Positions 62,365 through 63,922 of a stretch of 64,000 nucleotides of DNA are shown piece by piece. Each line of letters begins with the position of its first letter. Position 1 is the stretch's first letter. The DNA lies in assembly GCA_902590915.1 (NCBI GenBank), contig CACIYQ010000006.1:1-64000 (forward strand), in the 5' to 3' direction. The stretch comes from an uncultured Pelagibacteraceae bacterium (lineage in GTDB: Bacteria; Pseudomonadota; Alphaproteobacteria; Pelagibacterales; Pelagibacteraceae). The notes under the pieces are model-generated. The model worked only from the letters and a program-made list of their open reading frames with translations. It had not been told where the DNA came from and searched no databases. The position numbers and the translations under genes were made by a program.

Positions 62365-62402
62365 GGGCCCTTAGCTCAGTTGGTAGAGCAATTCCCTTTT
62401 AA
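62365..62402 (+). pseudogene. Detached 5' half of tRNA-Lys(UUU)
   Basis: These 38 nt are identical to the first 38 nt of the intact tRNA-Lys at 62656, from G1 through the last base of the anticodon loop (CTTTTAA). After that the sequence is unrelated. It retains acceptor 5' strand, D arm and half the anticodon stem, so it cannot fold as a tRNA. It marks the left recombination junction. Confidence 0.9.
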
Positions 62403-62655
62403 TAAACTGCACACCTCATATTTTTAGCTTTTAGTGCGGTTAATCACCATTTAAAACACAGTGTGCACAGAGTGTGTAAAGAATTTTGCGTGTCTTTCCC
62501 TGTATAAAAGTACACAGCTAAATTGAGTGTGCGTTTTTGTTAAACAAAAGTGCACATATAAACTTATTTTATGTTTGAAAAATAAAGGTTTATTTACTAT
62601 ATAGACAACTTCATTGCATCTATTGTAGTACTATAATAGCTATGCAAAAATATGT
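62403..62655. other. Element arm region with GTGTGCAC-like iterons and no ORF
   Basis: About 250 bp without a convincing gene. It holds repeated short motifs: TGCACACC (62408), GTGTGCAC then AGTGTGTAAA (62461-62480), TACACAGC (62511), GAGTGTGCG (62525) and AGTGCACAT (62549). The motifs resemble recombinase arm-type sites or iterons. A TATAAT -10 box (62632) near the end probably starts the intact tRNA. Confidence 0.65.
62632..62637 (+). promoter_or_regulatory. -10 element of the intact tRNA-Lys gene
   Basis: An exact TATAAT lies 18 bp before the tRNA 5' end. The upstream TTCATT (62610) is a weak -35 with a 16-bp spacer. This promoter differs in sequence from the one before the 5' fragment. 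Confidence 0.5.
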
Positions 62656-62731
62656 GGGCCCTTAGCTCAGTTGGTAGAGCAATTCCCTTTTAAGGAATGG
62701 GTCGATGGTTCGAGTCCATCAGGGCTCACCA
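62656..62731 (+). tRNA. tRNA-Lys (anticodon UUU), intact
   Basis: A 76-nt cloverleaf. The acceptor stem GGGCCCT pairs with AGGGCTC (one G-U). The D stem is GCTC/GAGC, the anticodon stem ATTCC/GGAAT with loop CTTTTAA (anticodon TTT), and the T stem GATGG/CCATC with TTCGAGT. The discriminator is A and CCA is encoded. It is the only complete copy here. Its 5' half is repeated at 62365 and its 3' part at 63877. Confidence 0.96.
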
Positions 62732-62769
62732 TTAATCAGTAAAATCAATAGAAATATTCGGTGTGCAAA

Positions 62770-62798
62770 AACATTTTTTTAAAAATGTTGATTTTTTT
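62770..62798 (+). terminator. Rho-independent terminator after tRNA-Lys
   Basis: A perfect 9-bp AT-rich stem (62770-62778 with 62781-62789) and 2-nt loop is followed by GA and seven T. It lies 39 nt after the tRNA end. Confidence 0.7.
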
Positions 62799-62868
62799 CG
62801 TGCACGTTCTGTGCACATTTAATATAATTTATCTATATATAAATATTCAAATAAACGTAATTTTTAAT

Positions 62869-63282
62869 ATGAAACATCTTTATAAGTTAATCATAATTTT
62901 CACTCTATTTTTTAACACCGCAAATAGTAACGAAATAAAAATAACAGATACATCTGTTTCAGCAGAGTGGAGTTCAGTTAATAAAAAACACGTGAACTTA
63001 TACTACAGATTGGAATTTACCATAAACAAAACCTTAGATAAGATTGGTCCTTGTGTACAAATATTCGATTCAAATAAACTTAAAGTTTATCATTTTGGAA
63101 CTCAGTTTGACCCGTATTCACCCGGTAAATATGAATTTAATGAAAGTCCAACTATACCAGCTACAAAATGGAATAGAGGTAGTATTCTAAGATTTTATGT
63201 TGGTCAAGGTGGTTGTCACGCAGGTAGTAGCTCAATTTTAAGTAATTTCGTAGATTTTACTCCACAAGAAATACTAAATTAA
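62869..63282 (+). CDS. Small secreted protein carried in the tRNA-Lys element
   Basis: A 137-residue protein starting at ATG 62869 with a signal peptide (MKHLYKLIIIFTLFFNTANS). An in-frame GTG at 62761 would add a stretch overlapping the terminator and is unlikely. The mature chain has two cysteines (IGPCVQIF and GGCHAG) and looks beta-rich (VNLYYRLEFTINKTL, KLKVYHFGTQFDPY). I do not recognise a family. It lies between the intact tRNA and the detached 3' half, so it is probably cargo. Confidence 0.75.
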   Translation: MKHLYKLIIIFTLFFNTANSNEIKITDTSVSAEWSSVNKKHVNLYYRLEFTINKTLDKIGPCVQIFDSNKLKVYHFGTQFDPYSPGKYEFNESPTIPATKWNRGSILRFYVGQGGCHAGSSSILSNFVDFTPQEILN

Positions 63283-63291
63283 TTTTAGTAT

Positions 63292-63681
63292 ATGAAAAAA
63301 TTAATATTTTTCTTTTCATTTTTTATCATCCAAACTTCTTATGCAGATAATCTTAATCAAAAGAAAGTATTTTGTGAAAATAATAGTGAAGAATTTTTTA
63401 TAGAATTTAAAGAAAACAATAAAGCTAATTTTACGTGGGCAAATTACCCTTTAGGTATATATGAAAATAAAGTTGAAAGTTATGAATTAAAGGAATTATT
63501 AGGAGATAGCCTGGTTAGTGTAGGTGGTATTAATATAAGTAGAACAAAATTACAAATTTTATCATTGAGTGGATATACGGGTAAATGTAAATTAGTAAAT
63601 AAAGATTTAACTCAAAAAATAAAAAAAAAATTCGACAAATTACAAAATAAAAATAAGAAAAAAAAAGAGTTAAAATTTTAG
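63292..63681 (+). CDS. Second small secreted protein in the tRNA-Lys element
   Basis: A 129-residue protein with a signal peptide (MKKLIFFFSFFIIQTSYA). The mature chain has two cysteines (VFCENN, GKCKLV) and a lysine-rich C-terminal helix (QKIKKKFDKLQNKNKKKKELKF). It starts 9 bp after the previous stop, so the two form a unit. No family is recognised. Confidence 0.75.
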   Translation: MKKLIFFFSFFIIQTSYADNLNQKKVFCENNSEEFFIEFKENNKANFTWANYPLGIYENKVESYELKELLGDSLVSVGGINISRTKLQILSLSGYTGKCKLVNKDLTQKIKKKFDKLQNKNKKKKELKF

Positions 63682-63710
63682 AGAAAATTAAGCCGATTAT
63701 TCAGCAAGAA

Positions 63711-63852
63711 TTTGCACACCACTTAATTTGTAGAAAATTTCATCGGTGTGCACAGAGTGTGCAAAAAAGTGTGTAAACTTTTAAAAAATTCCATAAAATA
63801 AACCAGATTTTTGTGCACATTTTTTTACACACCATAAAAAATTCCATAAAAA
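63711..63852. repeat. Iteron cluster at the right junction
   Basis: It contains TTTGCACACC (63711), GTGTGCACAGAGTGTGCAAA (63746-63765), AGTGTGTAAAC (63769), TTGTGCACAT (63811) and TACACACC (63826), plus a direct repeat of AAAAAATTCCATAAAA (63782 and 63837). The 20-mer matches 62461-62480 at 19 of 20 positions, in the same orientation. Confidence 0.8.
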
Positions 63853-63876
63853 GTGAACTTCACGTCGTAATTACCA

Positions 63877-63922
63877 CTTTTAAGGAATGGGTCGATGGTT
63901 CGAGTCCATCAGGGCTCACCAT
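63877..63922 (+). pseudogene. Detached 3' half of tRNA-Lys(UUU)
   Basis: These bases match the intact tRNA from the anticodon loop (CTTTTAA) through CCA plus one further base. The preceding sequence is unrelated. With the 5' half at 62365 it would rebuild an identical tRNA-Lys if the interval were removed. It marks the right recombination junction. Confidence 0.92.

Follow-up and report, generated by a model that had tools for sequence, protein, structure and literature searches.

An integrase-less cargo element at a split tRNA-Lys gene of a SAR11 bacterium, probably mobilised in trans by a pelagiphage integrase

The window analysed in this study is a 64,000-nucleotide stretch of contig C6 of the draft SAR11 genome G000 (1.04 Mb, 81% complete). 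Near its end, downstream of the host gene tgt, a tRNA-Lys gene is present in three parts (Table 1). ARAGORN and a comparison of repeats placed an intact tRNA-Lys(TTT) gene between two isolated halves. The 5' half (38 nt) is an exact match to positions 62656-62693 of the intact copy, and the 3' half to positions 62687-62731; what all three have in common is the 7-nt anticodon loop CTTTTAA, referred to here as the core. Sequence, repeats and ARAGORN all agree with the coordinates of the three parts and of the shared loop given in a preliminary description of this locus. Its statement that no recombinase lies inside the element was also confirmed, as only two small ORFs are located between the cores. 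It had further proposed a search for an integrase past position 64000. None is present downstream of the 3' half, since a host M48-type peptidase gene follows directly and contig C6 stops within this gene at position 64369, 448 bp past the 3' half.

Table 1. Features of the tRNA-Lys locus in the window
Feature	Position	Strand	Evidence and remarks
tgt (queuine tRNA-ribosyltransferase), host gene upstream of the site	61168-62280	+	Pfam TGT, E 5.7e-145; same neighbour in empty-site relatives
Host tRNA-Lys 5' half, host promoter upstream, core CTTTTAA (62396-62402) at its end	62365-62402	+	
Left arm (arm1): element end and promoter region of the replacement tRNA	62403-62655	+	Homologous in G215, G383, G321 and prophage G111
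Putative arm-type integrase site GTGTGCACAGAGTGTGTAAA, +65 from core as in phages	62461-62480	+	
Promoter-like TTGAAA-17-TATATA of the replacement tRNA (inferred)	62575-62603	+	Same place in G215, G383, G321 and phage L100
Intact replacement tRNA-Lys(TTT)	62656-62731	+	ARAGORN
arm2, second arm-like region; GTGTGCA +74 from the intact tRNA core	62732-62868	+	Conserved in G215, G383, G321 and G174
Terminator-like hairpin within arm2	62800-62816		
Cargo gene 1, 137 aa, signal-peptide-like start	62869-63282	+	
Cargo gene 2, 129 aa, signal-peptide-like start	63292-63681	+	
Right arm	63682-63876	+	82-86% to G215, G383, G321 and G174
Putative arm-type site GTGTGCACAGAGTGTGCAAA, -131 from right core (phages: -136)	63746-63765	+	
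Host tRNA-Lys 3' half, core CTTTTAA (63877-63883) at its start	63877-63921	+	

The empty site, which the preliminary description proposed to look for in relatives, was found in G139 (locus L028), the nearest relative in which the site is available (tgt 93% identical). In this genome tgt, one intact tRNA-Lys gene and the peptidase gene follow in succession, and the flanks of the window, joined at the core, gave a gap-free alignment to this site. The tRNA-Lys(TTT) gene behind tgt is a single-copy target: the complete relative G012 has only one tRNA-Lys among its 32 tRNAs, and no second copy was seen in the draft genome G000. Splitting of this gene without replacement should therefore be lethal. 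Segmental duplication as the origin of the three parts was rejected, because the similarity does not extend into the non-tRNA flanks but stops within a few bases outside the tRNA parts.

We surveyed 399 SAR11 genomes of the genus; most of them are drafts, so the counts given below are lower bounds. An isolated 5' half of tRNA-Lys was identified in five genomes (the window, G215, G383, G321 and G111) and an isolated 3' half in twelve. The complete three-part structure, with homologous ends and dissimilar cargo, was present in four (the window, G215, G383 and G321), and this recurrence in independent genomes excludes an assembly artefact. These four elements, designated type 1, share the order 5' half, a spacing of 241-253 bp, full tRNA, arm2, cargo, right arm and 3' half. 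The genome G174 carries arm2 and the right arm of type 1 with an intact, regenerated tRNA directly behind tgt, and lacks arm1. Type 2, the common 3'-half layout, comprises seven small elements (G301, G151, G280, G026, G061, G155 and part of G136) with the order intact tRNA, cargo, a different right arm and 3' half. Across the twelve small elements, with their two end types, the length from core to 3' half is 1.2-2.3 kb. A further observation concerns G174, whose element (L037, about 8070-8230) contains a fused copy of motifs from the right arm and from arm2 that lacks any tRNA part and resembles a scar of two tandem elements.

No integrase ORF was detected between the cores in the window, G215, G383, G321, G174 and six of the seven type 2 elements, the element of G136 being only partly on its contig. 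Each carrier has a single gene of the integrase family (PF00589), which is located outside the element and encodes 307-328 aa (323 aa in G000); by size only, these genes are taken as housekeeping XerC/D. No relative of the phage integrase described below was found in G000, and no phage gene was recognised in any of the twelve small elements. An element in tandem with a prophage was not seen in the survey.

The middle of the elements is exchangeable cargo. Between the conserved ends we found genes for MORN, Sel1 and PDZ proteins and for a PIF1-like helicase; G026 has genes for an EcoRI-type restriction enzyme and the accompanying methylase. The latter form a complete restriction-modification pair within a type 2 element of 2.2 kb at tRNA-Lys (L068, 5199-6975). 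The product of cargo gene 1 of the window had no Pfam, PHROG or PADLOC match and only one weak match among 170 relatives, while that of cargo gene 2 could not be assigned to a family (Pfam and PADLOC gave nothing).

The tgt genes of the carriers are 69-81% identical to each other. Arm1 is 93% identical between G321 and G383, whose tgt genes share 72%; for the type 2 right arm the pair G026/G151 gives 92% (tgt 73%), and G061 and G155 are 98% identical in their left part (tgt 76%). The Sel1 genes of G174 (type 1 ends) and G061 (type 2 ends) are 95% identical over 738 nt, with 81% identity for tgt and 85% for the downstream gene, which shows that elements with different ends have cargo in common. 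The ends and some of the cargo are thus more alike than the host genes, apparently indicating horizontal movement of the elements. One and the same genome pair shows unequal divergence (arm1 93%, arm2 78% and right arm 84% identity), a mosaic structure that weighs against the explanation preferred below. A stretch of 203 bases from the core, identical to the left arm of the window, was also encountered in L046 (4429-4675; DDII01000050.1, Cellvibrionales MAG UBA1854), in a gammaproteobacterial tol-pal contig beside a 92-base N run. Chimeric assembly seems more likely here than cross-class transfer, because the core is preceded by an anticodon stem of the SAR11 type.

The element carries a complete tRNA-Lys(TTT) of the same isotype as its target. 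In G383 the nested tRNA has the pair C6-G67 in the acceptor stem vs G6-C67 in both flanking halves. This single compensatory difference identifies the nested gene as foreign and the flanking halves as the split gene of the host. The nested tRNA is likewise foreign by sequence in G111. All four type 1 elements have a promoter-like TTGAAA-16/17-TATATA in the same position (nearly identical, with TATACA, in phage L100), and its hexamers are those of the host tRNA promoter. It was missed by a generic promoter scan, owing to its TATATA -10 hexamer; position and conservation nevertheless argue for a replacement tRNA with its own promoter.

Phages with attachment sites of the same kind were identified among viral contigs. 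In L044 the attP (GTTGTGTAAGTTA-CTTTTAA-CAATTTACACAAC) is symmetric about the core and adjoins genes for a tyrosine integrase, terminase and portal, together with a full tRNA-Lys identical to that of the host; L045 represents the matching right end of a prophage, followed by the host 3' half. The integrase of L044 had no match among named phages. A portal-based search yielded L106, L107, L112 and L100, which share the order integrase, attP, full tRNA-Lys. The first three contain an intact attP (GTGTGCAAGTTA-CTTTTAA-TAAACTGCACAC), genes for a tyrosine integrase, terminase and portal, and, at a distance of 288 bp, a full tRNA-Lys, which in L107 is clearly not that of the host. All five contigs represent temperate phages with their own tyrosine integrase, which the element of the window lacks. 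Counted from the core, window positions 62396-62443 are identical to the attP arm of L107 at 48 of 48 positions. Integrated in SAR11 genome G111 (L064, L038; AG-916-B03) we found a near-complete podovirus-like prophage, whose right end is off the contig; it splits tRNA-Lys and has a left end of the window type (arm1) and a divergent replacement tRNA. A distant relative of the phage integrase (24%) is encoded by a 425-aa open frame at G122:C1:113029-113658 (L085).

The similarity extends to short repeats in the arms, which are putative integrase-binding sites. Four elements, three phage contigs and prophage G111 have the motif GTGTGCACAGAGTGTG(Y)AAA, or the form of it seen in the phages, at +65; on the left side of the core the distance of the arm motif is -131/-132 in the elements vs -136 in the phages. 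GTGCACA is present in 9 copies in the 585 non-coding bp of the element and is absent from the 62.4 kb of the window preceding it. The right arm of the element is not the phage right arm, and the right-end core flank GTAATTACCA differs from the phage core flank GTGTGCAAGTTA, for which reason recognition of the element by an integrase of the L107 type is not certain. Scans of viral sequences gave only unrelated chance matches for GTGTGCACAGAGTGTG and CGTTAAACGAAGG, and none for GTGCGGTTAANCACCATTT in viral contigs. Neither an excised circle nor a packaged form was detected in 2.9 million viral contigs, from which the element end (right arm) and the circle junction were absent by exact match. In the elements themselves we identified neither a packaging gene nor a packaging signal.

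On the basis of these results we consider it probable that the region 62396-63883 is a non-autonomous cargo element, integrated into tRNA-Lys in trans by a pelagiphage integrase. The element (approximately 1.48 kb from core to core) would have an attachment site with only the 7-bp CTTTTAA in common with the host, and its integration into the single-copy tRNA-Lys(TTT) behind tgt would split the host gene. A complete tRNA-Lys, located 253 bp inside the left end, would then be supplied from the element's own presumed promoter. As the element ends resemble the attP arms of tRNA-dependent phages, the integrase of such a phage, a temperate podovirus-like phage of SAR11, most likely acts in trans, cutting the element in and out after presumptive binding to the arms. 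Transfer between cells may occur by phage packaging, perhaps in co-integration with a neighbouring prophage.

Of the two models put forward in the preliminary description, the one assuming a single element that interrupted the host tRNA and brought a full replacement with it is clearly favoured by the recurring unit, the same layout in phages, and the compensatory pair by which the nested tRNA of G383 differs from the host halves. The other, in which a 291-bp unit regenerates the 5' half and a tandem 1190-bp unit leaves the 3' half, accounts for the arm-like region downstream of both cores (at +74 in the case of the intact tRNA core) and for the cargo part standing alone in G174. However, the 291-bp unit contains no gene and has no arm on its other side, it was never seen alone in the 399 genomes, and its phage equivalent is the interval between attP and tRNA; we therefore regard this model as very improbable. 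Somewhat less remote, though still improbable, is the explanation that a tRNA-dependent prophage was stripped to its ends and acquired two genes late, with neither an element family nor current mobility. Such a prophage does occupy the same site in G111, and the left end is the one identical to a phage attP over 48 bases. This explanation is at odds with the existence of twelve elements of 1.2-2.3 kb, with two end types, no recognised phage gene and dissimilar cargo between conserved ends, as well as with a right arm unlike that of the phages and a 95% identical cargo gene under two end types.

The alternative that deserves most attention, although we judge it unlikely, is that a tRNA-dependent prophage was once inserted beside a cargo element of the 3'-half type and was later lost by recombination between the tRNA copy and the 3' half. 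It would have left the 5' half, arm1 and the tRNA as a footprint, and only the 1190-bp inner part (from the tRNA core to the 3' half core) would be mobile at present. In agreement with this, arm1 is phage-like, seven other small elements have the standard 3'-half layout, and G174 contains exactly the inner element alone. In addition, the window, G215, G383, G321 and G174 all have arm2 at the same distance (+74) from the core of the intact tRNA. A bare footprint without a cargo element was found in none of the 399 genomes, however, and arm1 occurs with type 1 cargo ends in four of five cases and with type 2 ends in none of seven (Fisher p 0.01). The nested tRNA of G383, which differs concordantly at both ends from the host halves, also speaks against a footprint. 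Since G174 has arm2, cargo and the right arm without arm1, and arm2 is conserved, the inner 1190 bp could nonetheless be the mobile unit.

The preliminary description knew of no account of the nested form. Such a form has in fact been reported from phages by Guerrero-Bustamante and Hatfull (2024, PMC10865867) under the term tRNA-dependent lysogeny, in which a short core is shared by a host tRNA and a phage tRNA of the same isotype; the main example is likewise a tRNA-Lys(TTT) target, with a core starting 5'-CTT. In the window, too, both halves stand apart from the intact copy, and the core common to the three parts is 7 bp long. As in mycobacteriophage Fionnbharth and the cluster K4/L phages (PMC10865867), the core lies in the anticodon loop of tRNA-Lys(TTT), the host tRNA is not rebuilt, a full replacement tRNA with its own promoter is provided for a single-copy essential target, and arm-type repeats surround attP, the promoter and repeats of the SAR11 element being putative. 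The mycobacteriophages, however, are complete phages with their own integrase, whereas the SAR11 element, known from its sequence, is 1.5 kb long, has neither an integrase nor phage genes and carries its tRNA 253 bp from the end. What is new here is the integrase-less mini-element and its phage counterparts in SAR11.

Being flanked by attL/attR-like sites and devoid of a recombinase, the element also resembles the cis-mobilizable elements (CIMEs), integrase-less att-flanked islands that have been suggested for the Dehalococcoides ssrA islands (PMC3146451) and are presumed to move together with a relative resident in the genome, e.g. by accretion. Those islands adjoin or derive from conjugative or serine-recombinase islands, whereas the helper proposed for SAR11 is a phage with a tyrosine integrase; unlike them, the SAR11 element splits its target tRNA and carries a replacement. 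CALINs and MITEs (PMC11389934) are similarly non-autonomous and recognised solely by the sequences at their ends, and CALINs likewise have exchangeable cargo, but both classes use other recombinases and site types, and the SAR11 elements have no attC or terminal inverted repeats. Our literature search (largely outside subscription journals) revealed no account uniting an integrase-less att-flanked island with tRNA-dependent lysogeny. Phage satellite families (PICI, P4-like, PICMI and tycheposons) are generally known to encode their own integrase. These families, reviewed in PMC11389934, are small chromosomal cargo islands that depend on phages, and several of them are found at tRNA genes. The SAR11 elements resemble them in size, location and presumed dependence on phages, and differ from PICI-, PICMI- and tycheposon-type satellites in having no integrase or recombinase of their own.

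To conclude, this study extends tRNA-dependent lysogeny to phages of SAR11 and offers a reason for the presence of a single tRNA gene in some phages. The genomes of SAR11 bacteria are streamlined and contain few recognised prophages, yet their gene content is variable. Elements of one or two genes at the tRNA-Lys phage attachment site, found in 12 of the 399 sampled genomes, constitute a concrete route to this variation. With cognate integrases, attP arms and elements now paired by sequence, the idea of mobilisation in trans can be tested directly. We give an even chance to the broader hypothesis that integrase-less micro-elements of SAR11 parasitise tRNA-dependent pelagiphages: by copying the phage arms and the rescue tRNA they would be moved in trans, shuttling single accessory genes (for EcoRI restriction-modification, PIF1-like helicase, Sel1, MORN, PDZ and secreted proteins) via one tRNA-Lys site. 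If true, this would represent a phage-powered cassette system in the most abundant bacteria of the ocean.
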